Shown: positions 2,241 through 46,556 of the stretch, piece by piece
Layout of the letters: each line of letters begins with the position of its first letter
Numbering within the stretch: position 1 is the first letter of the stretch
Source of the DNA: a virus
Reading direction: 5' to 3' (one strand)
IMG/VR virus record: IMGVR_UViG_3300024339_001388
Span: 1 to 47,181 of that record
Length of the DNA stretch: 47,181 nt
The notes under the pieces: model-generated
The model's input: only the letters and a program-made list of their open reading frames with translations
Databases searched by the model: none
Told to the model about the DNA's origin: nothing
Program-made: the position numbers and the translations under genes

Positions 2241-2250
2241 GGAGAAAACT

Positions 2251-3111: not shown

Positions 3112-3122
3112 AGGGGCCTTGG

Positions 3123-3821: not shown

Positions 3822-3839
3822 TCTTTTTTGGGAAAAAAA

Positions 3840-4991
3840 ATGAACAAAGATTTTAGAGTGAGCGTAACGCTTCCGACACACCCAAAGGCTTTAAAGTTAA
3901 TGAGAAAGCTTGGTGACAGGGCTTTTTATAATTTAATAAGGCTTTGGGCTTTTGTTTCTGCAAATAAGCCCAATGGTGTTCTTTCCGGGTATGATGAGGA
4001 CGATATTGAAATAGCATCGGACTGGAATGGAGAACCCGGGCAATTTGTAAAAATTCTTTTAGATCCCAAAATAAGATTTTTAGAAAAGAGTGATGATGGG
4101 TTTATAATTCATGATTGGCAGGACCATAATGAATATGCTTCCCATGCTGACGAAAGATCAGAAAAAGCAAAAAAAGCTGCAAGAGCTAAATGGGAGACAA
4201 ACGATAGTGAAACAACAGCAGAAAGAAATAAAAAAACACGGGCTCAAAGATTGTCAGACGCAAGAAAAAAAGGAAGGCATTCAAAAGTTGAGTGGGAGGA
4301 GATGTTTTCTTTTTTTAATGATACTTGTGTTAGGTGCGGTGGTGACTCTAATCTTCATGGTGTTGTAAAAGATCATATCATCCCAATTTATCAAGGTGGC
4401 AGTGACGGCATTGATAATTTGCAACCCTTATGTGCTCGCTGCAACTCAGGCAAAGGCCCTGAAAATAAAGACTTTCGAATTGATTGGTGTGAAAAAAATG
4501 GATTAAAAATGCCTGCTAAATGGGTGTCGAATGCCTGCCGAACGTCTGCGAATGCCTGCTCAAATGCCTGCCCTTCTCCCTCTCCTACTCCCTCTCCTGA
4601 TAAATCTAGTTTGACAAATGTCAGCGGTGGCCCGCTGGCTGATAAAAAAAAATCAAATCATTTCCGGGAAAAAACAGGGAATTATTTCAAAGAGATTAAA
4701 GCCGTGTGTGAAAAAATAGCAAATTTAAACCTTGATGGTTTTAATTCATATAAGTTTGTTCAAGCCCAGGTCAATAACAGGGGGCATCCAGGAGCTATCC
4801 TTGATGCCTTAAACGGAATACTTAAAGCCAAATTCCCTATTGAAAAACCATGGGGTTTTGTAAATTCAATCATGAGAAGAGAAAACGGAAATTTTAACGA
4901 GGCAGATGCAATCAAGATCCACCAGGAAATGAAAAATCTTAAACCAGGTGAGCTCAGTAATTTAACTCACGGGCTTTTTGATCAACTTTGA
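3840..4991 (+). CDS. phage replication-type protein with internal HNH endonuclease
   Basis: Residues 1-115 resemble the N-terminal domain of phage replication-organiser proteins (helical DNA-binding, 'DRAFYNLIRLW' then 'HDWQDHNEYAS'). A Lys/Ala-rich linker ends at 'AARAKW'. Then comes a complete HNH module: C163-x2-C166, D178-H179 (DHIIP), 'NLQPLCARCN' with the second Cys pair, and 'SGKGPEN'. After it the usual Ser/Pro linker resumes (NACPSPSPTPSP), followed by a helical C-terminal domain of about 110 residues that could bind a helicase or loader. HNH endonucleases cut or nick DNA. I chose ATG 3840 over an in-frame TTG at 3828 because neither has a strong ribosome site and ATG is the better codon. 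The fusion is discussed as a finding. Confidence 0.75.
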   Translation: MNKDFRVSVTLPTHPKALKLMRKLGDRAFYNLIRLWAFVSANKPNGVLSGYDEDDIEIASDWNGEPGQFVKILLDPKIRFLEKSDDGFIIHDWQDHNEYASHADERSEKAKKAARAKWETNDSETTAERNKKTRAQRLSDARKKGRHSKVEWEEMFSFFNDTCVRCGGDSNLHGVVKDHIIPIYQGGSDGIDNLQPLCARCNSGKGPENKDFRIDWCEKNGLKMPAKWVSNACRTSANACSNACPSPSPTPSPDKSSLTNVSGGPLADKKKSNHFREKTGNYFKEIKAVCEKIANLNLDGFNSYKFVQAQVNNRGHPGAILDALNGILKAKFPIEKPWGFVNSIMRRENGNFNEADAIKIHQEMKNLKPGELSNLTHGLFDQL

Positions 4992-5000
4992 GGAGGCATA

Positions 5001-5432
5001 GTGTTAAAAATAATCTTACCCGGAGTCCCCATCGCAAAACATAGACCCCGCTTTGCCCGCCGTGGAAAGGGGACAACAACTTACAGCGATCAGGAAACCG
5101 AAGAAGGCTTGATGCTTTGGCATGTTAAACAGCAAGCCAATGGCCATAAATTGTTTGAAGATGCGGTCCTCGTTGAGGCAAGATTTTTCATGCCACGGCC
5201 TAAGTCAAATTTTGGAACCGGCAGGAATGCAGGAAAACTCAAGCCATCTGCATCAAAATATCATATCAAAAAACCTGATACTGATAATCTTGTGAAATTT
5301 TTGTTTGATATTTTCAACGGTTCAGTCTGGAAAGACGATTCCCAGGTGATTTATGAGGTTTCAGAGAAGATTTACTGTGGGCCTGGTGAAGAACCCAGAA
5401 CGGAAGTGACAGTCAAGAAACCTGACGAATGA
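5001..5432 (+). CDS. RusA-like Holliday junction resolvase
   Basis: This 143-residue protein fits the RusA family, dimeric endonucleases that resolve Holliday junctions and branched phage DNA. The early 'PGVPIAKHRPRF' strand and the acidic catalytic set are present: PDTDNLVK (D93, D95), D103 and the WKDD motif (D112, D113), with Lys99 nearby. The length is normal for the family (about 120-145). Translation starts at GTG with AGGAGG overlapping the stop region of the preceding gene. Its place at the end of the recombination and replication block fits a role in preparing DNA for packaging. Confidence 0.88.
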   Translation: MLKIILPGVPIAKHRPRFARRGKGTTTYSDQETEEGLMLWHVKQQANGHKLFEDAVLVEARFFMPRPKSNFGTGRNAGKLKPSASKYHIKKPDTDNLVKFLFDIFNGSVWKDDSQVIYEVSEKIYCGPGEEPRTEVTVKKPDE

Positions 5433-5536
5433 TGGATGCAGGAAAAAGATAACCTAAATCCTTCCAAAAGAGTATTATTGCTGAGAAGAAGAATCTGATC
5501 AATGCTGTGTTGGAACTTGGATGTGGTCATAGCTGA
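5432..5536 (+). pseudogene. possible small coupled gene with an in-frame stop
   Basis: An ATG overlaps the rusA-like stop as TGATG, the typical coupled start. After six codons there is an in-frame TAA (5450-5452), then 27 further open codons with a helical, protein-like composition ('AEKKNLINAVLELG') and a TGA at 5534-5536, just before the next gene. No family is recognised. It may be a broken small gene or a coincidence. Confidence 0.2.
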
Positions 5537-5545
5537 GAGGTGTTA

Positions 5546-5800
5546 ATGGTCAAGAATTGCGGGGAGTGCGCTGATTATAGAACCAGTTTTTGTGATCCTG
5601 CAAAATGCCGACCTGGGGATGGATACAGGTGTTTTAAAGACCCTTATGAAATGCCGGATAAGTTCTGTCAGAAATGCAAGGCCAGGCTGGTCAGGAAGCG
5701 ATCAAGAAAGCATTCACAGGCATACAGGGTAGTTGATTTGGTCTGCCCTAATGGATGCAAAAAGACTTATTTGCATGAGGAGGTCCGGAATACTCCGTGA
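5546..5800 (+). CDS. Cys-rich putative zinc-binding small protein
   Basis: The 84-residue product has nine cysteines: C5, C8, C16, C21 and C29 in the first half, then C41-x2-C44 and C67-x3-C71 around a basic stretch (VRKRSRKHSQ). The second half looks like a zinc ribbon or small zinc finger that could bind nucleic acid. The ATG at 5546 is preferred over an upstream in-frame GTG (5540) because GAGAGG lies 5 nt before it. It closes the early operon. No named family is recognised; a role as a transcription or replication accessory factor is only a guess. Confidence 0.6.
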   Translation: MVKNCGECADYRTSFCDPAKCRPGDGYRCFKDPYEMPDKFCQKCKARLVRKRSRKHSQAYRVVDLVCPNGCKKTYLHEEVRNTP

Positions 5801-5927
5801 GCTTGTTTATCTCCAATAAAGAACATTCCGGCAGGTTCTTCCTGAATCAATTATATTTTCATAAAAGTTGATTTTCTTAAATATCCTTACAGATATTCTA
5901 TATGTCGATCCAGTGTTGGAATTAGTT

Positions 5928-5970
5928 TTTTAGTATTTTACTTGACAATACTAAAATAGTTTACTAAATT
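5928..5970 (+). promoter_or_regulatory. promoter with overlapping operator palindrome
   Basis: A -35 box TTGACA (5942-5947) is followed after 17 nt by a weaker -10, TAAATT (5965-5970). A perfect inverted repeat, TTTTAGTATT (5928-5937) and AATACTAAAA (5947-5956) with a 9-nt spacer, covers the -35. A dimeric repressor bound here would block RNA polymerase. The gene starting about 45 nt downstream encodes a ribbon-helix-helix-like protein, so autoregulation is the simplest guess. Confidence 0.55.
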
Positions 5971-6012
5971 TATAGCTGAAATATGGATAATTTTTTTATG
6001 AGGGGGGAGGGG

Positions 6013-7134
6013 ATGATGAAACGGCATACAATAGAAGTGGATGAAATAATTATGAATTACTTAAAGAAAAAGGCTGATCCATTCGTGGATACCCCGAATA
6101 CAGTCCTTCACAAACTGCTATTTAGGGATAGTAAAATTCTCAAGGAGTCATCACCTTTGATTTACAATTCTTTCAAAAGTATTCCCAAGGCACTCTCCCA
6201 GATATTAGAAGTAATCGAAGAGGTGGTTAAAAATGGATTTTCGAGACCGGAAGCAACTACAATTGTAGCAAATCGAAACGACACAGCATTACAAACCATC
6301 ATGGACAAATATTGTCGCCAGTTAGGGAAAACGGCTATTGAGGTGGACATGTTATTGAGTGAGCCTAAATTGGAGGGATTTCGGATTATTTTGACAAAAA
6401 AATTTCCGAATCATAGGGATTTAATCGCAACTTTCTTTAATGGCCTGAACGAGGGGAAGAAAAAAATGGATCAGATCAATCAACATGAAAACTGCTATCA
6501 TAGACCCATTATGGAAAGCACCAAGACACAATCCGATCTTAAAAAGTTGGATGCGGCACTTGATAAAATTCCTAAAGACTATGAAAAAACAGAAATCAAA
6601 GTTAAAGATGAATATATCCCAGTCGAAGTCTGTAAAAATTCTAAGTCTAGCAATTATTTTATTTTTCTTGAAGAACAGAATGATGAAAAAGGTCTTCTAA
6701 TCCTTCCTAATGGAGAAAGTAAATGTTTAGAGTTAGACAAATTTCATGAACTTGAAGAACAGAATCTTCTTGAATTGTTAAAAGACGGAACACTGACTAA
6801 AGAGCAGCTCTTCAAATATGAAGAATATTTAAATAACGATGATCATATAGAAAAACCTATAAATTCTTCAACAAATGAGCCCGCGTACATTGATAAATTT
6901 AGAAAAATGCTAAAGAATGACAACACAGTTCCAACGATAATGTTTGAATTTGTTAAATCTAAAAAAAAAGTAACTTGGTCAGAAATTAAAAATCATCTTA
7001 CAAATCAACATGGTTACTCAGACAGCGGCAGTTACTCTGCCTCATTAAGGGTATTGTTTGTGGATGGTTATATAAACATTGAAGGCAAAGGCGATACAAA
7101 GACAATTTTTTTTAAAAATAAATATAAATCCTAA
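6013..7134 (+). CDS. ribbon-helix-helix-like protein, unknown function
   Basis: The N-terminus (KRHTIEVDEIIMNYLKKK) has the strand-helix look of a ribbon-helix-helix DNA-binding domain, similar in kind to the SeqA N-terminal region. The middle (about residues 160-290) is charged and poorly conserved in appearance. The last ~70 residues, 'VTWSEIKNHL' to 'LRVLFVDGYI', look like a winged helix. I chose ATG 6013 because a strong purine-rich site (GGGGGGAGGGG) lies directly upstream; an ATG at 5983 in the same frame would add ten residues, and 6016 is also possible. The gene has its own promoter and operator-like repeat, is AT-rich and ends facing the convergent protease gene. It looks like an acquired accessory gene; function unknown. 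Confidence 0.6.
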   Translation: MMKRHTIEVDEIIMNYLKKKADPFVDTPNTVLHKLLFRDSKILKESSPLIYNSFKSIPKALSQILEVIEEVVKNGFSRPEATTIVANRNDTALQTIMDKYCRQLGKTAIEVDMLLSEPKLEGFRIILTKKFPNHRDLIATFFNGLNEGKKKMDQINQHENCYHRPIMESTKTQSDLKKLDAALDKIPKDYEKTEIKVKDEYIPVEVCKNSKSSNYFIFLEEQNDEKGLLILPNGESKCLELDKFHELEEQNLLELLKDGTLTKEQLFKYEEYLNNDDHIEKPINSSTNEPAYIDKFRKMLKNDNTVPTIMFEFVKSKKKVTWSEIKNHLTNQHGYSDSGSYSASLRVLFVDGYINIEGKGDTKTIFFKNKYKS

Positions 7135-7278
7135 ATTCAACTTTATTTTTTGACAATTTTAATCAAACACATTTTCCCATAATGTTTTTTATAATATAGC
7201 AAATTGAATGGACCTGGTTGCCAAGAACCCTCGGTTCACAGTGTCGAAAAAAATCAGCTTAAGTATGTATAAAGTGGA

Positions 7279-8193
7279 TTAAATTTGTGGAGGTGGGCCT
7301 ATCGATAAAATTTGCCCCACACCGTTTTGATTTTCAATAACTTTAACCGCATTGGTCATATTAATTGTTTGAATACATGTGTGATGAACACATAAAACTG
7401 CATCTTGAAGATCTTGGTTCTCTTCTAATTCTGTGACATTTATATCCAGCGCTCTAATGTCTTCAAAAGAAAGATGGCGAGAATGAGACAATGTCATTGC
7501 ATGATTTCCCATTTCTTGAATGATACGATCAGCTTTTGTTTCTTTATCCTTATCGTCTTTGAACATACCGGTGCAGAGCCATTTTTTTACTACTTGGTCA
7601 GACCATCTAATTGCCTTGTCACATTCTCCAATTAAAGATGGACTGTATTTTTGTAATATAGGAATCCAAAAACCTTGCAACTGTGGGTTTGCGACTATTT
7701 CCTTTTTCGCCTGTTCGACCTCTTCAAGAATTCCGTGTGCTGGCAAATTGGCTATTTGAGGATCAATAGGACCAAGGTTAGAATGTTTTCCCATAACAAT
7801 TTCATCGCAAGACAAGGAAATCATAGTGCCTGCAGACATGGCAATCTGCGGGATTATCGCACGAATGTTATTGTTAAACATTTTCCTGAGGTAATCCACT
7901 AATGATTCCGTGGCTGCTATACTACCGCCTGGTGTATGAAGAACAAGATCCAGCCCTAAATTTCTATCAAGCTTATGAATAGCGGCCATAAAGCCATTTT
8001 TATCAGAATCGTTGATTGAAAAAACATTGCCAGCTTGGTTGGCAAGATAAGCTTTGTCCAACCAGCCAGAATAATATACTATTACATTTCTACCGGTTTG
8101 TTCAGAAAGTCGCTTGAGATATTTTCTCCTAACACGATCATGAGGGCTACCCGCAGTTTTAATCTCATTTAGTAGTTCAAGCCAACTTGACAT
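7279..8193 (-). CDS. SDH/ClpP-like serine protease (SDH_sah family)
   Basis: This ~304-residue protein fits the family of ClpP/SppA-fold proteins named after serine dehydrogenase proteinase. Visible landmarks are the oxyanion-side HTPGGS (residues 86-91), the nucleophile context MSAGTM (S120) and the downstream 'SNLGPIDPQI' (about 139-147). There is no clear signal peptide or membrane span, so it is probably cytoplasmic. ATG 8193 is preferred over ATG 8205 because GGGGGA lies a few bases upstream of it. It is on the opposite strand to all phage genes and overlaps a small upstream gene by 25 nt. Substrate and role in this element are unknown; a moron or host-interaction gene is the likely class. 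Confidence 0.8.
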   Translation of the reverse strand: MSSWLELLNEIKTAGSPHDRVRRKYLKRLSEQTGRNVIVYYSGWLDKAYLANQAGNVFSINDSDKNGFMAAIHKLDRNLGLDLVLHTPGGSIAATESLVDYLRKMFNNNIRAIIPQIAMSAGTMISLSCDEIVMGKHSNLGPIDPQIANLPAHGILEEVEQAKKEIVANPQLQGFWIPILQKYSPSLIGECDKAIRWSDQVVKKWLCTGMFKDDKDKETKADRIIQEMGNHAMTLSHSRHLSFEDIRALDINVTELEENQDLQDAVLCVHHTCIQTINMTNAVKVIENQNGVGQILSIGPPPQI

Positions 8194-8384
8194 GCATTCC
8201 CCCATGTAATGGTATCAGTCGAATTATTTGTTAAGCTGTATTGGTGCCTTTTGGCTGCATCTTCAGTAGGGACAATCATAAATTCACCAAAAGCATGAAC
8301 TATATCTCCTGGGCGTTGCACATTTATTAAATTTAAAAAAACCTCATCTTCATAGTTTCTAAATGGAATGTTTATATTTGGCAT
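8169..8384 (-). CDS. small protein coupled to the SDH-like protease
   Basis: A 71-residue acidic/neutral protein precedes the protease on the minus strand, and its 3' end overlaps the protease start by 25 nt, so the two are probably co-translated. ATG 8384 is favoured over ATG 8399 because GGGAG precedes it at a normal distance. No signal peptide, membrane segment or known motif is visible, and I do not recognise the family. The segment 'GDIVHAFGEFMIVPTEDAAKR' resembles a short beta-hairpin followed by a helix. An adaptor, substrate or inhibitor of the protease would fit the layout, but this is inference. Confidence 0.5.
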   Translation of the reverse strand: MPNINIPFRNYEDEVFLNLINVQRPGDIVHAFGEFMIVPTEDAAKRHQYSLTNNSTDTITWGNACQVGLNY

Positions 8385-23640: not shown

Positions 23641-24290
23641 TGGCTATACCTATTCAATTTAGAAAAGGCACTGCCGCAGAATGGGCCGATGCAGATCCGG
23701 TTCTTTTTGAAGGAGAGCTTGGCCTTCTTCTTTCAGACGATCCAGACACCCAGTTAATGAAAATGGGTGATGGAATCCTTAAATGGAGCGAACTCCCTTG
23801 GGCTTCTCGTGGTCCCAGGGGTTTTGATTTTGAATTTGAATGGACAGGCACAGTCCTTGGAGTGAAGACTACTGATGAAGAACTCTTTACAGAAGTCGAT
23901 CTCAAGGGAGAGCAAGGCATCCAAGGAATTCAAGGCATCCAGGGCATCCAAGGTGTTCAAGGTCTTAAGGGCGATACAGGAGATCAAGGACTTAAAGGAG
24001 ATACCGGAGATCAGGGCATTCAGGGCATTCAGGGTGTCAAGGGAGATACCGGGGATCAAGGTATCCAGGGTATCAAGGGTGATACTGGAAGCCAGGGAAT
24101 TCAAGGAATCCAAGGAATCCAAGGCGAAACCGGGGACCCGGGGGCCATGACTGAAGGGAAAATATGGGTCGGGAATAGCGCGGGTCTTGCAGAAGAAAGA
24201 GACGCTTCCCCTATTGTTCTTTCCGGAACCGGAGATCCTCCATCGGTTGTTGGGCTTGCCGTTGGAACCCTATATTTTAAGCATGAATAA
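23640..24290 (+). CDS. collagen-like tail fibre protein
   Basis: The 216-residue protein begins with a globular domain (about residues 1-60) containing '[11 protein letters not shown]' and '[17 protein letters not shown]'. This is the opening typical of phage fibre head domains, including the Mtd N-terminal type that docks a fibre to the virion. Residues 90-170 are 27 uninterrupted Gly-X-Y triplets, mainly GIQ, GDT, GDQ and GLK, expected to form a collagen-like triple helix. A short C-terminal part (about 46 residues) follows, too small for a full receptor-binding head. It would be a trimeric spacer or side fibre. Confidence 0.8.
23907..24149 (+). repeat. collagen-coding GGN-X-Y repeat
   Basis: Twenty-seven 9-bp units code for Gly-X-Y, with a higher-order repeat of about 27 bp (GIQGIQG and GDTGDQG blocks). 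Copies differ mostly at third codon positions, which suggests old expansion rather than recent slippage. The region is nonetheless a likely site of length change by recombination. Confidence 0.85.
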
Positions 24291-24304
24291 GGAGAATACA
24301 GACA

Positions 24305-26065
24305 ATGATTTATGACCTACCATTAATCGGCAGCGCTGCGCGGGCTTCCTGGTATGCTCAACAGGACAATATATGTTCCGTCGAGGCAGATGTTTTTAAA
24401 AATCCCCACGAATTCCTTTTCATAGGGAATGCCGCCGCTCCAACCGCCGGAGCCCCATGGACGTTTACAATGGATTTTCAGTCAGCAATGGCTTTAGAGA
24501 CATTCTACTGGCATATATACAGTACGGACGAACCGCCGAGTGATCTTAAAATTTATGGATCTGCAACAGGGGCATTTGCTGGGGAAGAAACTTTAATTGA
24601 AACACTAACCGGAATTGTCTCAACGTCATCCGACGAGTATGTTGCCTATGCGATAGGCACCCCGCAAAGCTTTAGATACTACATGTTTGAAATATTAAGT
24701 TTTGTGACCCCTTCAACCAAACCAAGTTATTTCTATGGAATCTCCTTTGAATTTGGAACAGGGGATTACACCTTTAACACAACGACGGAATACGTCGAAC
24801 CTTTGAATAAAATAGAAGGCACAGGCTGGATCTATTGTTTAAGGGACGATGTGTACGGAACGGATTATGAGACACGTTGTAAGGCTTTGCTCTCCTTGTT
24901 TGTAGAAGATTTAGGCTGGGATGTTGACATCATAACGTATCCATCAAAACTGCTATTAAAATCGGATGGGTTAAATAATGATCAGCCTTGGGGATATGTT
25001 GTATGTGAAATAGTCAGCGCCGGTGAGTTGGATTTTCAAAAGGCTTACGGATACTGGGATGTTGCGGCAAAAACAGGTTCAATGCTCATAGCACAAGGCA
25101 GTTCTTATGCGTCAGATTATAGTAACGTGGAGGTACAAAATTCGGACCCATGGACTATGATTTGTCGGGGAAACAGAGACTTATTTCAACTGGTGGCGCC
25201 AAACCATGTAACGGGATCTTATGACAGAGGAATGTCTATGATGGGTCATTGGCCTCGTAATGCCGATCTTACCCCGGCACACACGACCTTTGTCGGTGCT
25301 GAGGTTGCGGCAACTGGCCCTAATATTTTAGTGGCCAGTTCTGCTGGCTTTGAAGTGGGTGGCTATTACATGATATGGGGAGCTGATGGAGAAGGTCAGG
25401 ACTATGGTGTTCTATGTACCGCGATTCCAGATGCAACACATGTCACGATTGATTCTCTTCCAAGAAATTATTCCGCTGGGTCTTTCATTGGAAACTCCGT
25501 AATGAACTTTTTCAGGAAATCTGGGGCTATGTATAATCTTGGGCATGGGAAAAAAAGTGGTCTTGTTGAACCGACAACCGCTGATGTCTTTGAGTTTGAA
25601 TATATGGGATACGGCTTTAGGATGCCTGATGGCATTCAAAACAAGAAAATATTGGCCCCTCTTATGGTTAGAAATAATGCCTCTGTTCAAGGCGGCATTT
25701 CTGTCCCGGATAAAATATTATGTGGTAATTATGATACCGACGCCCTGTATATGTACCTGATCGGAACAGTAAACCCGAGAGATATTGGAACAGTGACCAG
25801 TGCAGCCGCCAAGACTTTGACAGATACGGCCAAAGCTTGGACAATCAATGAACATGCAGGGCGCTACGCTTATATTTCTGCGGGAACTGGTTATTCTATT
25901 GCCGGGAATTTCATAAAGATCGTTTCAAATACGGCAGATACATTGACCGTGGAATACGATTGGATAGACGTCCTTGCAGTTGGTGACTCCTTTAGCATTG
26001 CAGATGAAATCTGGCAATCAGGAGTTGGCTATGATCTCATGGCTTTCAAGTGTGGGGGAGCGTAA
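24305..26065 (+). CDS. tail appendage protein with discoidin-like N-terminus
   Basis: In the 586-residue protein, residues ~50-155 have the layout of a galactose-binding/discoidin-type domain ('WTFTMDFQSAMALETFYWHI', 'DLKIYGS', 'FRYYMFEIL'). A second beta unit near 335-405 ('ILVASSAGFEVGGYYMIWG' to 'YSAGSFIG') is echoed near 500-560 by 'TVTSAAAKTLTDTAKAWTIN' and 'GNFIKIVSNTADTLTVEYDW', a small hub-like beta repeat seen in phage tail proteins. Carbohydrate contact at the cell surface would fit. AAGGAG precedes the ATG. The name rests on fold-style pattern, not on a full family match. Confidence 0.6.
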   Translation: MIYDLPLIGSAARASWYAQQDNICSVEADVFKNPHEFLFIGNAAAPTAGAPWTFTMDFQSAMALETFYWHIYSTDEPPSDLKIYGSATGAFAGEETLIETLTGIVSTSSDEYVAYAIGTPQSFRYYMFEILSFVTPSTKPSYFYGISFEFGTGDYTFNTTTEYVEPLNKIEGTGWIYCLRDDVYGTDYETRCKALLSLFVEDLGWDVDIITYPSKLLLKSDGLNNDQPWGYVVCEIVSAGELDFQKAYGYWDVAAKTGSMLIAQGSSYASDYSNVEVQNSDPWTMICRGNRDLFQLVAPNHVTGSYDRGMSMMGHWPRNADLTPAHTTFVGAEVAATGPNILVASSAGFEVGGYYMIWGADGEGQDYGVLCTAIPDATHVTIDSLPRNYSAGSFIGNSVMNFFRKSGAMYNLGHGKKSGLVEPTTADVFEFEYMGYGFRMPDGIQNKKILAPLMVRNNASVQGGISVPDKILCGNYDTDALYMYLIGTVNPRDIGTVTSAAAKTLTDTAKAWTINEHAGRYAYISAGTGYSIAGNFIKIVSNTADTLTVEYDWIDVLAVGDSFSIADEIWQSGVGYDLMAFKCGGA

Positions 26066-36268: not shown

Positions 36269-37047
36269 ATTTGAATTCGGTGTTAGACCAGGCATGGGAT
36301 TTTTTGGAGGAATCTTTAAAACAGAAACAGACAAATGCCAAAATGGAGAATGACAGGCTGACACAGCTCGGGCTTGAACAGGAAAAAACCAAGAGGATGA
36401 ACATGTCTTCACAGGAAAAAATTCAGAGGCTTATGAATAAAGGCCTTATTGATAGACAAGAACTTGTGAATTCCGGAGCATTGTCACATCAGCAGCTTCA
36501 AAATTCCGGGCTCATGGATAAAACCGAACTTGAAGGCCAAAACAAGCTTGAAGGACAAAGATTGATGAATACGGGTGCCACCGATGTTGAAAAGGAACGG
36601 GGTGCCTGGGATTATAAAAGGTCAAAGCTTGATGCTGATACTGATTTAAAGGTTGAGGCATCAAAAAGCAGAACCGCAAGGGAAAAGTCCAATTTTGTTT
36701 TAGATGAGTATGGAGCCGATGGTGTTAAGATTGGTCAAAAACTTGCCAACCCATACAAAAATGCGATTGGCAGGTCTGACCCGGAAGAAATTGACAACGA
36801 CAATCAGATTGATAAACTTTATGGTGCAGAAAAGAAATTGCCACTATCGTCATCCGGTTCCACGCAAGACCCGCTCCCTGGAGATATGTCATCCATGGGG
36901 AGACATACAAATTCCCGATCATTGCAGCAAACAACCAACCATCCAGGGATCTCCAATCCGGCAATTGGTAAAACTCCGCTTGTCGGGTCATATGAAGACA
37001 AGAAAAAAAGATCTTTTAATCAACCACAAAGAAGGATGTTCTCATAA
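36265..37047 (+). CDS. Gln/Asn-rich helical protein, possible internal virion protein
   Basis: The 260-residue protein is hydrophilic and helical in the first ~150 residues, with an internal repeat of about 10-12 residues ('RLMNKGLIDRQELVNSGALS', 'QQLQNSGLMDKTELEGQNKL'). It then becomes Ser/Pro/Gln-rich and disordered, with a basic end (DKKKRSFNQPQRR). Its position immediately before the giant protein, overlapping its start (TAATG), resembles the small internal or ejected proteins that accompany giant podovirus proteins. This is inference. Confidence 0.55.
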   Translation: MNLNSVLDQAWDFLEESLKQKQTNAKMENDRLTQLGLEQEKTKRMNMSSQEKIQRLMNKGLIDRQELVNSGALSHQQLQNSGLMDKTELEGQNKLEGQRLMNTGATDVEKERGAWDYKRSKLDADTDLKVEASKSRTAREKSNFVLDEYGADGVKIGQKLANPYKNAIGRSDPEEIDNDNQIDKLYGAEKKLPLSSSGSTQDPLPGDMSSMGRHTNSRSLQQTTNHPGISNPAIGKTPLVGSYEDKKKRSFNQPQRRMFS

Positions 37048-40000
37048 TGGCTGCTTTGTCAGACCGGACCATTAGATATTATCATGATTTAATAAATGAT
37101 AATCCTGAAAGAGATAGGACAGCTCTTGTTGAGGGGATTAAACATTTCCATAGAAAAGGCAATGAGACACAGTTTTATCCTACAGTTAATAAGCTGGAAT
37201 ATGAAGGTCGGAAAAAAATGGATCTTCAGGAAGAACAGGTCCGGGAAAAGAAAGATAGTGAACCCGGAGATATAATGACCGGCCTGAAACGTGGGGTTCA
37301 AACAAGTCAGGCCATGTTATACGGGTCAACGGCTTTGGTTGGTCGTGCCATGGAAGGTGCCGGTATGGATAATGCCGGTGCCGCCACGAAAGAGTGGGGG
37401 TTAAAAGGCTATCAGAGGAATATGGCCGAATCTGAAAAGTATAAGGCTAAATATAGTTTTAAAGATGTCTATACCGGGAAAACTGGTTTTGGAGGGGCAA
37501 TTGATTGGGCACAAGGTACTCTTGGCGAACTGGCTCCCTCCATGGCTGAGGCTGCCGTTGGAACCTTGATAGGAACTCTGGCCGCTCCTGGAGCCGGAAC
37601 TGCTATTGGTGCATTTGGGGCAAGGACTCTTTTAAAGAAGAGCATTAATAAATTAACCAAAGAGGCAATTGAATCAGGTGTTAAAGGTGTAACAGAATCC
37701 CAGCTCAAAAAGCAGATCACTGGCCAGGCATTGAAAAAGTTAGGTGGCAGGATCGGTATGGGTGCTGCTGTTATGCCTTTGGAAACTGGTGGTATGTACG
37801 CAGGTCTGCTTGAAGAACATGGGGTGGATGCTCCTTTTACAGCCTTGCTATTTGGTGCAGCGGCTACGTCTCTTGAGTTCTTTGGCGGCAATTCAAGGCT
37901 TATTGACAACCTTGTGGGAGCTATAGGAAAAGGCCAGAGCGGTTTAATAAAGAGAACTGCAAAAGAAATCTTAAAAGGTGTTCCGGAAGAGGCTTTCCAG
38001 GAAGGTGCCCAGGAAATTATGAGCATCTTGAATACCGTTGTTAATACAGATGAAAAATTGCTTACAGTTAAAAATTTTGAATCTATTGTCGAATCCGCTG
38101 CCGCAGGTGCAGTAGGTGGCGGTGCTGGTGCAGTTGTATCCGGTGTATTATCCAAGGGTTCAAAAGACAAGGGTACGGATAAAGAAGATGGGGATGATAC
38201 CAAAGGTCCGTCCGATGCTGAAAAGATACTCATGGATGAAGAGGATCTCGGAAAGTCAGCCGAGGATTTTTTAAAAGATGACATCATGGAACACGAGGAT
38301 GATGTCCGGGCAGCCTCTGAATTCACTGATGAAGAACTTGACCAGGTTATCAGCAAACCTGATGATGCAGACATTGCAAAAAAAGAGGAAAAACCTTCTG
38401 AAAAAATTTCATCCGGACAGACAGTATCATGGGTGAATTCTTCGGGGAAAATAATTACCGGCACAGTTGATTCCCTTGGTGCAAATGCCGCTTCCGTTAA
38501 CGGTAAAGATGGGAAAAAATATCGGATAGGTGTGGATAAATTTAATATTCAGGATGCCAAAGATCAGGGCGAAACTCTTTTGAAAGATGATGTTCCTGAA
38601 ACAGATTTTACAAATAAGACCGAACCAGGAAAAATTAATGCAGTAAAGAAAGCTATCAGTAAAACAGAAAATGGAGATCCCCAGGTTGAAAAAACGCCTT
38701 TAGAACAAAAAGAGATTTCCCTTTCTCCTGATCAGGGTGAAAATAAACTGCCCGATGAATTTTCTCCTGGTAAAACTGTTTCCTGGGAAACCAAAAAAGG
38801 CAAAGAAATCTTTGCCACTCTCGTAAGAAGAGACAAAAATGATAGATGGCATGTGGAAAAATCAGATGGCAAAAAGGCTATTGTTGCTCAGAAAATTTTG
38901 ACCATATCTGATAATTTAATCAATTCCGACAAAAAAGCCCCGATAGACGCCAGGCTGCCGCAAATGCCAAATTCAAAAGAAGAATCAGAACCCTGGGAAA
39001 TGAGCCAGAAAGAATGGACGGACGGCCATATAAAGTCACCCGCTATGCACAAAGATCATGTAAAAAAAGCCATTCAAGACGGCAAGATCAAATCCCATCT
39101 TGATTATCCCGAATTGACGGTAAAAGAAAGCCAGATATCCGGCCAAAAGGATAAGCCAGAATCGATAAAAACACCTGAACGCAAACCAGGCATAAAGGGC
39201 GGCAATGGCAAGGCGTTCCTTAACGATAATTCAGAAATAGAATTTGTTTATGAAATAATTGACTCAAAAGATCTTGTCACATCTCATGATGATAATATGG
39301 CAGTCAACCCAGAGTTCCCTGCAGAACTGCAGCCAAGGGAAAGAAGCCGTAAAGCATCACTGATGCAGGTAGAAAGTATGGCAGCAAAACTCAATCCAGA
39401 AAGATTAGGATCAAGCTCAAGCGTATCTCAGGGTGCACCTATCGTTGGCGGTTTAAATATAGTTGAGTCTGGAAACGGTAGAGTGCTTGCAATCAGGAAA
39501 GCTTATTCCGGTAAGTCTGGAAAACAATATAAGAACTGGCTTATTTCCAAGGCCATGGATTTTGGTGTTACAGATCCCGCATTGAATAAAATTAAAAATC
39601 CGGTACTGGTCAGGAGAAGGACAACTAAGATAGATGACCTTGCCAAGTTTACTCAAAAAGCGAATGAAGCAGATACGGCCAAGTTAAGTTCAACCGAGCA
39701 GGCTGTTGTGGATGGAGGTAATTTAACCTCAGATGATTTGTCAACATTCCGTCCATCCCAGGACGGGGATCTGACCGCTGCAACAAACAAGGTTTTTATT
39801 GACCGATTCTTGGGCAAAATGAGTCCAGAAGAGCAGTCAGGATATCTCACTGAAGATGGCAGAGCAAACAAACAGCTTGTTGATAGAATGCAGGCCTCCA
39901 TTTTTCAAAAGGCATATGGGTCAGACGAATTATTGAAAATGGCGGCAGAAGAAGCAGACCCGGATATAAAAAATATTCTTAACGGCATGACAGCCGCTGC

Positions 40001-43000
40001 AACAGAATTTGCGAAAGCAAAAGGATTGGATGAGGAAATTGCAGATCAGGTTATTATTGATGACCTTATTAAGGGCATATTGTATCTCAGGCAAGCTCAA
40101 AAGGAATACCCGAACCTTAAATCGAGCAAGGGCGGTACAAAAGCCCAGGCGCAATTATCGCAAGCGCTTGCCCAACAAGATATGTTCAATTCCGAGATAT
40201 CAGAGGATGTCAAACAAATATCATCTTTCCTGGCGGAGAATATCAGGAGCGGAAAAAGAATAGGAGAATTTATTTCGGCTCTTGGAAATTATTTAAGAAA
40301 AGGCATTTCTGACTTGAAACAAATGGATATTTTTGAGAAAAAAGAGGGGTTAAGTTCTTCTATACTAATCAGCAAAGCTTTAAAAAAACTGGAGAAAAAA
40401 TATGAAGACAAACAAAGAAATCTTTTTAGCCAACAAATTATCCGAGAGCCAGAAAAGCCGTTTTATGGAACTGATCATGAAGCAGGCAATGGACAAGGCA
40501 AACAGGAAAGATATTCCAGACGAACCTCTTCTGAAGATGCCAAAGAAACCCAAGTAAAGGAGCCGACAAGTGAAGCACCCAAACAACTTGATTTATTTGA
40601 ATATCAAGCAGCACAACTGCCTAAGATCAGGATCACGGGCAAGCTGCGAACCAAACAGGAAGTATCAACTACCTTTGCAGGAAGAGTGGATATTGCCGAA
40701 ACCGGCTACATTATACAAAGTCCACAAGACGCAGCCACATTCTTATCCCACCTTGTTGTAGAACCTCACGAAAACGCATACTTCCTATCGCTGGATGAAG
40801 ACGGAAAAGTCCTTGAAGTTATTAGACACGCCATAGGGGTCAAAGGCTCAAGCCCCATAGATTCCATATCTGCAATTGGTAGATCCTTTAATCTTGGTGG
40901 TGTCAAGCGCATCGTTTTTCTTCATAACCATCCTTCCAACAAAACAGAACCTTCTCCCTCTGACAAAAATATCATAATTCAACTGAGTGATATCGCTGCC
41001 CTGCGAAAGATAGATATCATCCCTATGATAATTGGGAATATGGAGTTTGCGACATTTGATAAATATGGAAATACATCTGCCCCGACACCTATCAAGGATA
41101 CTGTTAGTAAAATAGATGTCCCAATCAGGGAAAGGATATTCACAAAACGGGTAAAAAGAACTGACCCTGTGTTCCAAGGCCATGATGATGCGGTTAAAAG
41201 ATTTAAAGACGAAGAAGACGGGTTTTTGCTTCTTAATTCCAGCAATCAGGAAGTGGGGTTCCTGCCTTTCCCGTCCGGTCTTGAGCAGAGAGAAATTACA
41301 GCCAGACTCTTAGCCGCTATAGAGAAAACAAATGCAACCTCCATACTTATAAATAATAAACCGCCTGCCAACGCAACCGGGAGAGAGGATTTTTTTGAAC
41401 GACTGTCCGATGCTCTACTTGATAATGGTGTATCTCTTTTTGATATTTTTTCTTACACAAAAACAGGCCATGTCAAAAACAACCCGCAGGATATCAGAAG
41501 AGATCCTTATTTCTCCATGGAGCAAATGAATCGGTCAGGGATACAGTTCTCCACAGTTTCATACGATGAATTAACCGCTGCCCAAAAAAAATTATACAAC
41601 AAACGTCTAAAAGAATTGCCAGAAGAAGTTTCTGTCCAGATACAATCGAATATAAAGAAATTTAAAGGCACTTCTTGGGAAAAGCAGGCCACTGCTGGGT
41701 TGCTGGTCAGGCAGGGGATAAATGATTTGTTATCAGGAAAAGACACGAATGATGAAAACCTCAAAAAGTCTTCTATTGTTAAAGAAATTAAAAAGAACGG
41801 TGAAGAAGGTATTTGGAATTATATAATTTCAAAACCGAGTGGTATGATAGGGCATCCTGTAAAACCAGTAAACAGCATCAATAGTTCGTTTTCCAATTGC
41901 AACCCGTCAAAAGCGTGTGCCAAATTCTGTTATGCCACAAAAGGGCATTATGTTTATGCTTCAAACATTATTTCTGGGGAAGTGACAAATTGGGCGATTG
42001 AAAAAGATCCTGTCCGGGCAGCGAACATTGCAGCCAATCATTATACAGTGATGCTTGATTTTAAGCTTAAAAAAGCGTTGAGGCTCCTTGATAAAGGGGA
42101 CTTAGGCTTGAATTGGATTCCGTTTATAAAACAGCTTAACATTAGAGGAATCCGGGTCCAGGTTTTTTCAAAGCGGCCTGAGTTGTTAAGCCAGGTGCCA
42201 AAGCAGAATTTACGGTTGCTTTCGATAGATGAAACTAACCACAAGTTGGCGGATCAAAATCCGGAGCTTCAGGTTGCATACGCCTATGATGGTAGCCAGA
42301 AAAGTATAGATTGGTTAGTCTCGCATAAAGACCAAATTCAATTGATTCTACCGGTTAAAATTGGTAGAAAGGTTCTAAACGAAGAAAAACTTAAAGCATT
42401 GCCTGCCTGGGCAAAAAGAAGATGTTGCCCTGTTAATTCAGGGGCAAAAAAGATTAAATCAAAAGACAATATTGCCGGGTGGACTTGCGCTCAATGCGAC
42501 AAAGACGGCGGCATTGGATGTTTCAGGGGTCAATCTACCGCTACTGTGATGGCAGCAGAGGCCCCGCTGACAATAGAAGGAGCGAATAAATATGGAAAAG
42601 AAATCCGACAGCTTGCAGACCGACTCCCCGAAGAAAGTAGACAGGCATTTTTTGAGGACTTGGATGTACTCTTATCTCAAGTACGGGAGGGTATCAACCC
42701 CGAGTCAGAGGAAAGATACCAGGGACAGGCTGGTCAAATTTCTCAACAGCAAGTAATCCCAAAATTCCAATCCGACCAAACCCCCGGTCAAGGTGTAACC
42801 CTAAAGGATATCCAATCCGTTTTCAAAGGCCAGGACGTTTTCATATCCCCTGACAATAGTATTTCAATCCGTCTTAAAAACGGTCATGGAGTGCATATTT
42901 TAAACGCCACTCAAATGTCCGAGGGAGTTACCCAATACGCCATAGAATCTGGCAGGATGGACGAAAATGGCATTATCCTTGGCACAACCGTTGGCGACAC

Positions 43001-46000
43001 CATCACCTTGAATCAGGATTATGCCGACAAGAAAACTTTAAACCATGAAACCTATCATGTCCTGACCAATCTGGGCATGATTACCGAGTCAGACCGCATG
43101 GTGCTTAACGGCAAGCTAAACTCATTCAACAAAAAAGGCAGACTCAATTTTAAATTCAGCAAACACGCTGACAAAATCATTGCAAAAGAAGAAAATGAAG
43201 CAAATTTGATCTCTCAGTTCCTGGCTGAAAGAGAGCAGTTCCGAGGGACAGCCTTTGGCCGGGTGCTGCAAAAGATAGCTGATTTTTTGGATGGTCTTCT
43301 TCATATAGGCAGAATGTCTGCCACTAAGCTGGCAAGGGAAGTGGAGTCTGGAAAGATTTTTAAGAGAGAGGGCCTTCAGGGAGAATCAAAAAAAAGCAAA
43401 TTACAAACATCTGATGATTTCAATAAGGAACCTGGATCAAAAGTTTCCAAAATAACGGCCCGATTTAACAAAAAAGGTGCCGGATACGAATCTGATCAAT
43501 TCAAGGACATTTTACCAAAGAGTGTTGCTAAGGCTATGCAGAAAGGCCGTGGTATTAAAAAGTCCACCCTGCTTGAAAAATTTCGTAATTTCAAAACAGA
43601 TATGAAAATGGAAATGGATCATTTCCCAGAGCTTACCAGAATGGAACCTGGCAAACAGCGATCATCCGCCAGAGAAATTTTGCGAAGGCACCAGGATATT
43701 TCCAATATTGTCCAGGATAAAGCTGCAAGGAAAATGTCTGGAATGCTGAATAATCTTGACAAGCGGGAGTACGATATGTTTGCCATGGAGCTGATTTTAG
43801 GGGATGAGGTCCGGTCTATTAATGATGGGCTCAGGACAGATTATAACCTGCCATGGGGATTTGAAAGTATGGACCAGGTGATTGAATCCCATAAAAAAAT
43901 TCAAAACATTAACAGGAAAAATAAAACAGTGGCCAAGGCCATTGAAGATCGCCGTAAATTTCACAAAGGTCTTGCCCGAGATCTGGTTAAATACGGAGTC
44001 ATGAAAAAGGAAATCTTGAAATCTGGTGATTATTTCCACCATCAAATTCTTTTGTACTGGAATGAAAAGGCGGCAGAACATCATAAAGGCATGGGCACGT
44101 CATCCAGTGAAATCAGAACCAAATGGCGGCCATGGATGACAGCCCGTAAAGGGTCCCCCTTAGAATATAATACCGAATACATGGAAGCAGAGTACATTGC
44201 CACATCACAACAAATGGCTTTGATAGAAACGGCAAAAAACCTGGCTCAGATTAAAAAAGAAAATGATATTCTCAGGGATTTAAAACAGCAAGCCAAAGCG
44301 GAAAATAAGGCGATCTATGATAAATGGGTTGCCCTGCAGACAAAAAATAATTTCAATTTTGAAGACCCGGCAAAGCCTCATGTAATAAAAATAGCCATGG
44401 GTTTTTCTAATCTTGTCCAGGCAGTAAAAACAGGTGAAATAACCTATGATAGTGAATTCCAGGATGTTGTTGATGCTATTTTGATAGCAGGCCAAGAACG
44501 TAAAATAAACAAAGAAGCCTGGATGGAAGCGGTTGACGACAATCCAAGAGCAGGGTTGGCTATCAATCACCCCAGATTGTTTCCTTTTTTATCTCATCTT
44601 CTTGAAAAACAGCATCAAGGCTCTATGTATGCGGCCATGATTTACAAAGGGATCAAAGGCCGTGACCGGGTTGTGAAAGAAGTCCTTGGAAAGAGTTTTA
44701 AAACCTGGAAACAAATTATCCCAAAAGGATATAAGGAATGGAAGCCAGACCCGAAGAAGGGTGCCTTCTTTGTGAATTCCATCACTGATCAGGTGCTTCA
44801 AAATGTTTTGGCAGGAGAAAAGACCCTGGAAGATAAAGATGTCAGAAAAGTTCTGGCCAGGGGCAATCCTCCTATTTGGATTTTACCCGAAGGATTGGCC
44901 GATACCATGGATAATCTGAAGCCGCATAATACAGAGGGACGGTTAGCAAGAACTTCGGAAGTAGCCATGGCCGCATGGAAACAGTATATCCTTTTGAATC
45001 CATTCTCGGCCCTTAAATATAACATCAATAATATGTCAGGCGATTTGGATATTGTTCTTGCTTATCGACCTGAGATTGCAAACCCAAATGCTTTAAAGAA
45101 ATCCCTTGGTGATCTGATCAATTGGTCCCGGTATAAAAAATTAAATCCGCAATTAAAAATCGAACTGGAAGAGGCCCAGAAATATGGTGTTATAGGCAGC
45201 GGTTTCGCTGTTCAGGAAGTAACCGACACCATGAAGATAATGACAACTAATACTTTTGTAAAAGATATCCTCACAGAAGAAAAGTTAGGACTTGCGGCAT
45301 CATATTGGAAGCACGTTAAAAATGCTTCACAGACAAGGGAAAATATTCTCCGGCTGGCAGCTTTTCGATGGTTTAAAAAACAACTTGAATCCGGGATAAG
45401 CATTTATGGAGTCAGTAAGATCGATGATATCAATAATCTTGTTGACCAGGGGAAAACAATAGAAGCCGCGGCCAAACTTGCAAGAGAACTCCTGGGTGAT
45501 TATGGAAATATTTCCCGGCATGGGGAATTTATCCGGAGAAGGATGATTCCGTTCTATTCCTGGATGGAAATCAATGCCCCCCGGTATGTTTATCTCATGA
45601 AAAATCTTAAATATGAAGGGGAAACCACCAACCGATTAAGTTTTACCTTTGCCCGGCGCGGGGTTGTTTTTGTGGCTAAAGCCTCCATGCTTGCCGGGGC
45701 TGTTATGATATTCAACACCCTTATGTTCCCGGATGAACTGGAAGAACTGGGGCCGGAAAAAAGGCGACAGATGCACCTGATACTTGGCAGACGGGAAGAT
45801 GGTTCCATCATTACATTGAAGTTTCAAGGGGCTCTATCAGATGCCTTGTCATGGTTTGCAAAAGAAGACCTTCCTTCTGATATTAAGGACTTGATGCAAG
45901 GCAAATCAACAATTCAAGAACAATTAATGGATATTCCAAAGGCTGTTCTTAATAAAACAGTTAGCAGCATTAGACCGGATGTGAAGATGTTATTTGAAAC

Positions 46001-46556
46001 CTTGACCGGATCTTCAACGTATCCGGATGCAACATCACCTAAGCCGATTCGCGACAAAGTGGAGAATATCTTAAAGACATTCAAACTTGATATCTTTTAT
46101 AGGAAAGCCATGGGGCGGCCTGGCCGTGGAAAGGACATGGCCGAACATTTCCTCAGTGACCTTTTGAATCTTATCACATACACAACAGAGCCCGGAGTAC
46201 AGGCCTATTATGATACACGCAAACTTGTTTTTACATGGAAAGAAAAGAACGGGTTTGAGTCTGGTGGAGGGAAACCGACAAAAAAAGGGAATGCATTTTA
46301 TTATTACCGGCAAGCCTTGAAATATGGTGATCTGGTTTCAGCAAAAAAATATCTACAAAAATATTATGACTTAGGCGGAACCGCAAAAGGCAAAAAAAGC
46401 GCCATCAGACTTGCCCATCCATTGGCAGGGATTAAAAAAATGGATCGCTATGAATTCAAAAAGACATTATTGCCGGCAGAGAAGAAACGATTAGAGCATG
46501 CCATCAAATGGTACATAAAAACATATGTTGAAAAAGGAAGGGGGGTTTCCAATTGA
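37047..46556 (+). CDS. giant polyvalent phage protein (3169 residues)
   Basis: Regions in order: helical Gly/Ala-rich N-terminus with a membrane-like stretch near 167-193; two small SH3-like units (about 459-500, 576-615); a DdrB/ParB-like domain (751-990); a RadC-type JAMM domain (1202-1345) with H1293-x-H1295 and D1306; a Cys-rich GP88-like domain (1575-1838; C1618, C1624, C1628, then C1793, C1794, C1814, C1817, C1825); a metallopeptidase-like domain with HETYH at 2000-2004 and a Glu-rich helix at 2048-2051; a ~1000-residue C-terminal large-polyvalent-protein region with a hydrophobic helix near 2872-2895. Such proteins are thought to enter the host with phage DNA and act on host defence or metabolism. 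The frame is intact over 9.5 kb. Confidence 0.85.
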   Translation: MAALSDRTIRYYHDLINDNPERDRTALVEGIKHFHRKGNETQFYPTVNKLEYEGRKKMDLQEEQVREKKDSEPGDIMTGLKRGVQTSQAMLYGSTALVGRAMEGAGMDNAGAATKEWGLKGYQRNMAESEKYKAKYSFKDVYTGKTGFGGAIDWAQGTLGELAPSMAEAAVGTLIGTLAAPGAGTAIGAFGARTLLKKSINKLTKEAIESGVKGVTESQLKKQITGQALKKLGGRIGMGAAVMPLETGGMYAGLLEEHGVDAPFTALLFGAAATSLEFFGGNSRLIDNLVGAIGKGQSGLIKRTAKEILKGVPEEAFQEGAQEIMSILNTVVNTDEKLLTVKNFESIVESAAAGAVGGGAGAVVSGVLSKGSKDKGTDKEDGDDTKGPSDAEKILMDEEDLGKSAEDFLKDDIMEHEDDVRAASEFTDEELDQVISKPDDADIAKKEEKPSEKISSGQTVSWVNSSGKIITGTVDSLGANAASVNGKDGKKYRIGVDKFNIQDAKDQGETLLKDDVPETDFTNKTEPGKINAVKKAISKTENGDPQVEKTPLEQKEISLSPDQGENKLPDEFSPGKTVSWETKKGKEIFATLVRRDKNDRWHVEKSDGKKAIVAQKILTISDNLINSDKKAPIDARLPQMPNSKEESEPWEMSQKEWTDGHIKSPAMHKDHVKKAIQDGKIKSHLDYPELTVKESQISGQKDKPESIKTPERKPGIKGGNGKAFLNDNSEIEFVYEIIDSKDLVTSHDDNMAVNPEFPAELQPRERSRKASLMQVESMAAKLNPERLGSSSSVSQGAPIVGGLNIVESGNGRVLAIRKAYSGKSGKQYKNWLISKAMDFGVTDPALNKIKNPVLVRRRTTKIDDLAKFTQKANEADTAKLSSTEQAVVDGGNLTSDDLSTFRPSQDGDLTAATNKVFIDRFLGKMSPEEQSGYLTEDGRANKQLVDRMQASIFQKAYGSDELLKMAAEEADPDIKNILNGMTAAATEFAKAKGLDEEIADQVIIDDLIKGILYLRQAQKEYPNLKSSKGGTKAQAQLSQALAQQDMFNSEISEDVKQISSFLAENIRSGKRIGEFISALGNYLRKGISDLKQMDIFEKKEGLSSSILISKALKKLEKKYEDKQRNLFSQQIIREPEKPFYGTDHEAGNGQGKQERYSRRTSSEDAKETQVKEPTSEAPKQLDLFEYQAAQLPKIRITGKLRTKQEVSTTFAGRVDIAETGYIIQSPQDAATFLSHLVVEPHENAYFLSLDEDGKVLEVIRHAIGVKGSSPIDSISAIGRSFNLGGVKRIVFLHNHPSNKTEPSPSDKNIIIQLSDIAALRKIDIIPMIIGNMEFATFDKYGNTSAPTPIKDTVSKIDVPIRERIFTKRVKRTDPVFQGHDDAVKRFKDEEDGFLLLNSSNQEVGFLPFPSGLEQREITARLLAAIEKTNATSILINNKPPANATGREDFFERLSDALLDNGVSLFDIFSYTKTGHVKNNPQDIRRDPYFSMEQMNRSGIQFSTVSYDELTAAQKKLYNKRLKELPEEVSVQIQSNIKKFKGTSWEKQATAGLLVRQGINDLLSGKDTNDENLKKSSIVKEIKKNGEEGIWNYIISKPSGMIGHPVKPVNSINSSFSNCNPSKACAKFCYATKGHYVYASNIISGEVTNWAIEKDPVRAANIAANHYTVMLDFKLKKALRLLDKGDLGLNWIPFIKQLNIRGIRVQVFSKRPELLSQVPKQNLRLLSIDETNHKLADQNPELQVAYAYDGSQKSIDWLVSHKDQIQLILPVKIGRKVLNEEKLKALPAWAKRRCCPVNSGAKKIKSKDNIAGWTCAQCDKDGGIGCFRGQSTATVMAAEAPLTIEGANKYGKEIRQLADRLPEESRQAFFEDLDVLLSQVREGINPESEERYQGQAGQISQQQVIPKFQSDQTPGQGVTLKDIQSVFKGQDVFISPDNSISIRLKNGHGVHILNATQMSEGVTQYAIESGRMDENGIILGTTVGDTITLNQDYADKKTLNHETYHVLTNLGMITESDRMVLNGKLNSFNKKGRLNFKFSKHADKIIAKEENEANLISQFLAEREQFRGTAFGRVLQKIADFLDGLLHIGRMSATKLAREVESGKIFKREGLQGESKKSKLQTSDDFNKEPGSKVSKITARFNKKGAGYESDQFKDILPKSVAKAMQKGRGIKKSTLLEKFRNFKTDMKMEMDHFPELTRMEPGKQRSSAREILRRHQDISNIVQDKAARKMSGMLNNLDKREYDMFAMELILGDEVRSINDGLRTDYNLPWGFESMDQVIESHKKIQNINRKNKTVAKAIEDRRKFHKGLARDLVKYGVMKKEILKSGDYFHHQILLYWNEKAAEHHKGMGTSSSEIRTKWRPWMTARKGSPLEYNTEYMEAEYIATSQQMALIETAKNLAQIKKENDILRDLKQQAKAENKAIYDKWVALQTKNNFNFEDPAKPHVIKIAMGFSNLVQAVKTGEITYDSEFQDVVDAILIAGQERKINKEAWMEAVDDNPRAGLAINHPRLFPFLSHLLEKQHQGSMYAAMIYKGIKGRDRVVKEVLGKSFKTWKQIIPKGYKEWKPDPKKGAFFVNSITDQVLQNVLAGEKTLEDKDVRKVLARGNPPIWILPEGLADTMDNLKPHNTEGRLARTSEVAMAAWKQYILLNPFSALKYNINNMSGDLDIVLAYRPEIANPNALKKSLGDLINWSRYKKLNPQLKIELEEAQKYGVIGSGFAVQEVTDTMKIMTTNTFVKDILTEEKLGLAASYWKHVKNASQTRENILRLAAFRWFKKQLESGISIYGVSKIDDINNLVDQGKTIEAAAKLARELLGDYGNISRHGEFIRRRMIPFYSWMEINAPRYVYLMKNLKYEGETTNRLSFTFARRGVVFVAKASMLAGAVMIFNTLMFPDELEELGPEKRRQMHLILGRREDGSIITLKFQGALSDALSWFAKEDLPSDIKDLMQGKSTIQEQLMDIPKAVLNKTVSSIRPDVKMLFETLTGSSTYPDATSPKPIRDKVENILKTFKLDIFYRKAMGRPGRGKDMAEHFLSDLLNLITYTTEPGVQAYYDTRKLVFTWKEKNGFESGGGKPTKKGNAFYYYRQALKYGDLVSAKKYLQKYYDLGGTAKGKKSAIRLAHPLAGIKKMDRYEFKKTLLPAEKKRLEHAIKWYIKTYVEKGRGVSN

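Follow-up and report, generated by a model that had tools for sequence, protein, structure and literature searches.

A giant phage protein joining ParB-like, RadC, GP88-like and zincin domains to a conserved C-terminal carrier

What would a phage do with a single chain of 3169 residues, the parts of which resemble several disparate enzymes? The question is raised by a gene at positions 37047 to 46556 of the linear IMG/VR virus record IMGVR_UViG_3300024339_001388, whose 47,181 nucleotides were analysed as a whole and are called the window here. The open reading frame (ORF) runs on the plus strand without internal stops through 3169 codons, so that the single chain noticed in a preliminary description of this DNA stands. 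We think it likely that the gene encodes a phage-type polyvalent protein composed of a payload and a carrier, and that this protein would be packaged, ejected into the new host and released by its own zincin, with a payload acting early. The domains have intact sites, the C-terminal carrier hardly changes between the window phage and a sister phage in a Candidatus Desulfobacula maris contig whereas the payload in front of it has been exchanged, the chain is depleted in cysteine, and the gene belongs to the virion module. Its parts are the following.

37047..46556 (+), giant polyvalent protein, a single ATG-started ORF of 3169 residues that closes the virion gene module
37047..38186 (+), Gly/Ala-rich N-terminal domain, residues 1-380, delimited by blastp
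38205..38912 (+), charged linker with a repeated element, residues 387-622, 73% and 34% identical to the sister by blastp
39225..39623 (+), DdrB-like ParB domain, residues 727-859, Pfam E 8e-35
40713..41054 (+), RadC/JAMM domain, residues 1223-1336, Pfam E 3.8e-11
41082..41561 (+), RadC companion domain, residues 1346-1505, accompanying RadC in the carrier family
41562..42740 (+), GP88 block, residues 1506-1898, inserted relative to the sister and containing all 8 cysteines
41898..41930 (+), first cysteine cluster, C1618-x5-C1624-x3-C1628-YA, invariant in 27 GP88 sequences
42423..42521 (+), second cysteine cluster, C1793 C1794 ... C1814-x2-C1817-x7-C1825, read directly from the sequence
42741..43406 (+), zincin-type metallopeptidase, residues 1899-2120, with HExxH and Glu in an alignment of 11 sequences
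43467..46553 (+), C-terminal helical carrier, residues 2141-3169, from an alignment of 59 sequences, AlphaFold and BFVD
45546..45587 (+), carrier motif IPFYSWMEINAPRY, residues 2834-2847, conserved and an intein insertion point in three relatives

All enzymatic sites had been described as apparently intact, and the alignments bear this out. The ParB-like domain passes its Pfam model (ddrB-ParB, PF18763) with 120 bits against a cut-off of 27.6, and the SGNGR motif at residues 808-812, which holds the pocket arginine, is invariant in the alignment, P1 DdrB included. A PHROGs match (phrog_5143) widens the ParB module to residues 613-1177, and the flanks of the domain are conserved. RadC also passes (PF04002, 43.4 bits against 22.1) and contains the E...HxHP...S..D motif, whose residues E1242, H1293, H1295, P1296, S1303 and D1306 are invariant in 12 aligned sequences; its companion domain has no Pfam match. 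The HExxH motif is present as HETYH at residues 2000-2004, and H2000, E2001, H2004 and a downstream third acidic ligand, E2049, are invariant in the 11 aligned sequences. In GP88 the three cysteines of the first cluster (Cx5Cx3CYA) are accompanied by an equally invariant RxxDxGD. That catalytic residues are kept across such divergence argues for functional domains and not for relics.

Concerning the Cys-rich GP88-like domain, the Pfam assignment is borderline and is supported by alignment. In a scan of the whole protein the model PF17338 scores 19.7 bits (E 8e-4); with only the block as query it reaches 24.1 bits (E 3.8e-5), slightly below the curated 24.4. Phmmer gives E values of 2e-6 to stand-alone phage members and 6e-54 to L111, and the block can be aligned with stand-alone phage GP88 proteins and with one other giant protein. 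Compared with the sister phage the block is cleanly inserted; the positions of residues 1505 and 1899 of the window protein adjoin directly in the sister, where GP88 is absent at one point. A search of 395 genomes from the host's phylum found no GP88 relatives. A relationship to the DUF5131/three-Cys-motif proteins was rejected: the profile cross-hits them in bacterial genomes, but hhalign found no relation. One of these cross-hits is the protein at 1444-2190 of L105, a genome from the host's family; with its neighbour at 132-1379 it looks like a pair of TcmP and three-Cys-motif (DUF5131/Gp37-Gp68) genes. The GP88 motif is CX5CX3C and thus not the canonical CX3CX2C of radical SAM enzymes, and a radical-SAM-like barrel, to which the model discussed below might point, is only a lead. 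Another giant phage protein (L183, ORF 2071-7536 on the minus strand; L186, L187) carries GP88, RadC and an LPD38 carrier. In L183 GP88 and RadC stand in the order opposite to the window, and four of the five cysteines of the second cluster are conserved.

The genomic setting is that of phage-type polyvalent proteins. The gene order leads from SbcC-like, RecT and HNH genes through terminase, portal, major capsid and head-closure genes and further virion-type genes to the giant gene. Polyvalent proteins combine at least two disparate domains per polypeptide (here ParB, RadC, GP88 and zincin) and are encoded beside late or virion genes; here terminase, portal, capsid and head closure lie upstream, in synteny with phage JC1. 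A conjugative-type polyvalent protein is not indicated, as the module is that of a podovirus virion and no relaxase or type IV secretion system matches were found among the ORFs scanned. Portal and capsid are 41-44% and 46-50% identical to their nearest relatives, which are Bcep22-like and related podoviruses. Judged from these sequences the window phage is a distant relative of the Bcep22-like podoviruses (Lessievirus); close genome-level relatedness to Lessievirus is not seen (portal 41-44%, capsid 46% identity). The C-terminus of the giant protein is 100% identical in contig L085 of a Desulfobacula metagenome-assembled genome, which holds a near-identical phage, and the sister phage region in the D. 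maris contig is syntenic with the window. The host is, by these sequence matches, most likely Desulfobacula, a marine sulfate-reducing bacterium. An integrase gene at 33.4-34.6 kb (contig reversed) is located immediately left of the sister phage region, and the sister is therefore probably an integrated prophage. One gene region has been rearranged: in the window it falls within the tail-gene area (23914-24819), whereas its 66% identical counterpart in the sister prophage (87318-88234 of the reversed D. maris contig) is found downstream of the giant gene.

The sister protein (L096:4419-18035, minus strand, 4539 residues) has the same gene order around it and reveals how the payload changes. 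RadC with its companion is 67% identical and the part from the zincin to the C-terminus 82%, but an ADP-ribosyltransferase (ART), an Eco57I methylase and a SNF2 helicase replace ParB, and GP88 is missing. Where structural genes of the two phages align, their DNA is 70-92% identical. The N-terminal domain is shared with the sister (32%) and with L044 (32%) and L064 (27%) in blastp, and the linker repeat has two matching copies in the sister protein. The pair thus represents a natural domain-exchange experiment within one host genus, in which the carrier was kept and the cargo changed, and it tells where the domain borders are and which cargos can substitute for each other. Other carrier proteins bring further payloads, namely a SNF2-type helicase (L002), zeta toxin and RadC (L003), GGDEF and helicase (L005), PBECR2 and a strawberry-notch helicase (L006), a strawberry-notch helicase (L009), transglycosylase and ParB (L024), and ParB, helicase and methylase (L028).

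Polyvalent proteins as such are already described, and the preliminary description had proposed that the domain combination may be new. When 89 carrier- or GP88-bearing proteins were searched with family profiles, together with annotated phage records, RadC was found in 18, the zincin in 14, ParB in six and GP88 in two of the 89. All four domains together occur in the window protein only, as does the pair of ParB and RadC, and the annotated phage records contain no second example of the set. The comparison with other polyvalent proteins, which had been proposed as a check, thus leaves the four-domain set to the window phage, and relative to what could be searched this combination is new, as are the cysteine pattern and the carrier family. 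The phage-type polyvalent proteins of Iyer et al. 2017 (PMC5512222) are alike in having many disparate domains, virion genes as neighbours, DdrB-ParB, a zincin and an LPD-like C-terminus. Among polyvalent proteins they report DdrB-ParB from phages only and RadC from conjugative elements only, their RadC section does mention prophages, and the name GP88 is absent (PMC5512222). The window protein differs in joining DdrB-ParB and RadC, plus GP88, in one phage protein and in a carrier without match to the Pfam LPD38 model. Together with the other RadC-bearing carrier proteins it does not fit the published split between conjugative RadC and phage DdrB-ParB.

The carrier, of about 1030 residues, is C-terminal in more than 80 proteins of uncultured phages, about 1700-4540 residues long, and in long ORFs it is placed at the very C-terminal end or close to it; the family comprises 111 viral stretches, of which the best 80 were kept, and eight in genome assemblies. 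The alignment of 59 members contains 22 invariant columns and the conserved IPFYSWMEINAPRY motif. No carrier match was found in 50,697 phage records or in a sequence search of the PDB. The AlphaFold model is nearly all helical (pLDDT 81.7, pTM 0.77). A BFVD search with it gave 51 matches at E <= 1e-3, many of them to late fragments of proteins whose annotation is large polyvalent, RelA/SpoT, zeta toxin or ART-PolyVal. Of the LPD-type C-terminus described before, a conserved family whose fold matches polyvalent C-termini is retained, but a match to Pfam LPD38 (PF18857) is not: none exceeds the curated cut-off in the window protein and only one sub-threshold match was obtained among 26 carrier-bearing records, while the positive control L187 matched at 1e-41. 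A relationship to the LPD38 carriers was rejected, L183 being borderline only (E 5.8e-4, probability 29%). Given the missing LPD38 sequence match and the BFVD fold matches, the carrier is a separate sequence family with a predicted LPD-type C-terminal fold. Inteins with a LAGLIDADG domain interrupt IPFYSWMEINAPRY in L042 (ORF residues 2636-2949), L061/L062 (about 3356-3670) and L077 (about 3250-3570). Their two insertion points, FY|SW and SW|M, are two residues apart.

The window protein has 8 cysteines, and every one of them falls within the GP88 block, an arrangement with a chance of about 6e-8 under random placement; the sister protein has none in its 4539 residues. After removal of inteins and pre-start codons, with ORFs called mechanically, 68 carrier-family proteins contain 0.43 cysteines per 1000 residues compared with 12.3 in the remaining ORFs of their contigs, or 7.8 when only the remaining ORFs of at least 600 residues are counted; 39 of the 68 lack cysteine completely. 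The depletion is about 30-fold and specific, cysteine being at 0.03 of its frequency elsewhere and the next most depleted residue at 0.80. JC1 gp69 (4515 residues), Pavtok gp27 (5007 residues), the N4 virion RNA polymerase (vRNAP), T7 gp15 and T7 gp16 have no cysteine either. For N4-like vRNAP this absence was proposed to serve passage through the tail and periplasm (PMC3715699, PMC3915230, PMC2784036), and by the same token the polyvalent proteins may also be threaded; the paper of Iyer et al. says nothing on cysteine (PMC5512222).

The four proteins richest in cysteine are the window protein, L018, L019 and L040. The latter three share one domain (L018 residues 1209-1651, L019 1344-1779, L040 1310-1740; 48-51% mutual identity) that contains most of their cysteines, grouped in a first cluster and a second one of the form CC..C..C...C, and they are otherwise nearly Cys-free; the domain has no significant Pfam match. 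Its layout of 3+5 cysteines in L019 and L040 resembles that of GP88, but hhalign was not significant and the two are therefore not called homologous. In L042, L061/L062 and L077 the extra cysteines come mainly from the intein (Hint, LAGLIDADG; tested on L042), splicing of which would leave a nearly Cys-free protein. Tentatively, a rule could be formulated by which giant ejected phage proteins exclude cysteine owing to unfolded threading through tail and envelope, the surviving clusters being confined to domains with metal-site-like patterns (GP88 and the apparently unrelated domain of L018, L019 and L040), so that an injected Fe-S (iron-sulphur) enzyme would rebuild its cluster in the new cell. 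To our knowledge this has not been described for ejected phage proteins. The signature provides a cheap sequence test for likely ejection of uncharacterised giant phage proteins, and the exception to it singles out one domain for biochemistry.

Among known systems, the JC1 gp69 / Bcep22 'DarB-like' protein of the Lessievirus podoviruses is encoded at the same genomic place (terminase, portal and capsid, then the giant gene), is also giant and Cys-free and has an HExxH ahead of its C-terminal carrier. Its payload is different, consisting of SLT (transglycosylase), methylase, helicase and LPD3 on an LPD38 carrier, without ParB, RadC or GP88. JC1 gp69 was detected in purified virions by mass spectrometry with 51 unique peptides (PMC9144972). 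P1 DdrB shares the ParB domain and the following region (37% identity over 344 residues), but has only 995 residues and neither RadC, GP88 nor the carrier; the Dar proteins of P1 reside in the head and are co-ejected (PMC12810830). N4 vRNAP and T7 gp15 and gp16 are alike as large, Cys-free ejected virion proteins, but they are not a swappable payload plus carrier. We know of no domains that they have in common with the window protein.

Packaging and ejection are suggested by the synteny with the virion protein gp69 of JC1 and by the selection against cysteine. The chain would be packaged unfolded in the head and ejected with the DNA via the short tail into Desulfobacula cells. The carrier would dock the protein in the virion, lead its exit with the DNA, or both; it is most likely the docking or export part, because it hardly varies among proteins whose payloads have been swapped. 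In the new host the zincin adjoining the carrier would cleave the chain and free the payload, which may be active in the first minutes after entry. From their families, the DdrB-type ParB could be an NTP (nucleoside triphosphate)-regulated nuclease or an NTP sensor, and RadC a JAMM enzyme that processes nucleic acids. Likewise GP88 could be an enzyme dependent on a metal or on Fe-S, and its cysteines would be tolerated because the site needs them. Zincins as processing enzymes and the ParB and RadC activities are proposals of Iyer et al. 2017 (PMC5512222). The likely net effect would be protection of the entering DNA and suppression of host defence, a role made likely by the sister, which fills the same place with an ADP-ribosyltransferase, a DNA methylase and a helicase. 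The delivery of several activities at once, as envisaged in the preliminary description, remains an inference, backed by the synteny with JC1 gp69 and the cysteine depletion. A '[RKQ][FY]S' linker motif was rejected as a processing site, since the excess (122 observed, 90+-10 in shuffles) is too weak to claim; motifs such as QFSTPP belong to methylase domains.

Several points weigh against this payload-plus-carrier reading, which for the window phage is drawn from sequence and model data. The zincin matches no curated peptidase model (no Pfam match, no relevant NCBIfam match), the carrier has no significant match in a PDB fold search, and hhalign found no significant profile link between it and the C-termini of JC1 and Pavtok. 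The GP88 model (pLDDT 66) alternates strands with helices, and many of its best PDB matches are barrels at E >= 0.096. P1 DarB and DdrB contain 9 and 2 cysteines, respectively, and are ejected (PMC12810830), so that the absence of cysteine is not obligatory for ejection. It is also not specific, because some further virion or scaffold proteins of T7 and N4 are likewise Cys-free.

It is possible, if doubtful, that the ejected protein stays in one piece and that the zincin itself is an effector cleaving host proteins. Only about 15% of the carrier proteins (14 of the 89 searched) contain this zincin, and processing by it is therefore no general need of the carrier; however, in the window protein, the sister and L002 the zincin lies near the carrier, as expected of a release enzyme, and Iyer et al. 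argue for a processing role of zincins (PMC5512222). A structural or assembly role, in which the giant protein would stay in the virion and its domains would be scaffolding relics that do nothing in the new host, is unlikely. Its gene does lie within the virion gene module and other virion proteins are Cys-poor, too, but the catalytic residues do not vary even among strongly diverged relatives, payloads differ between close relatives whose structural genes remain similar, and the depletion goes far beyond that of neighbouring genes, even large ones (7.8 per 1000 residues).

The GP88-zincin junction (42544-43160) is covered by the window record only, and the breaks there in both other records of this phage reflect either a polymorphic junction or a contig-end artefact. 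At 38009-38099 of the record G003 the terminal 91 bases match neither window nor sister. Although these breaks and the foreign end of G003 would fit a partial mis-assembly of the four-domain set, with no single genome holding the junction, this is very improbable, as the reading frame is unbroken and the GC content even over the junction, the independent G003 (99.98%) has ParB, RadC and most of GP88 on one chain, and beyond the junction the chain enters the same linker motif, KFxxDQTPGQGVTL, as the sister.

Elsewhere in the window, a gene at 7279-8205 (minus strand) encodes a ClpP-like serine protease of the SDH type (Pfam E 6.6e-27) outside the head-gene cluster, and genes for a metallo-beta-lactamase-fold protein and an HNH endonuclease (3123-3821 and 3828-4991) adjoin the RecT and SbcC-like genes.

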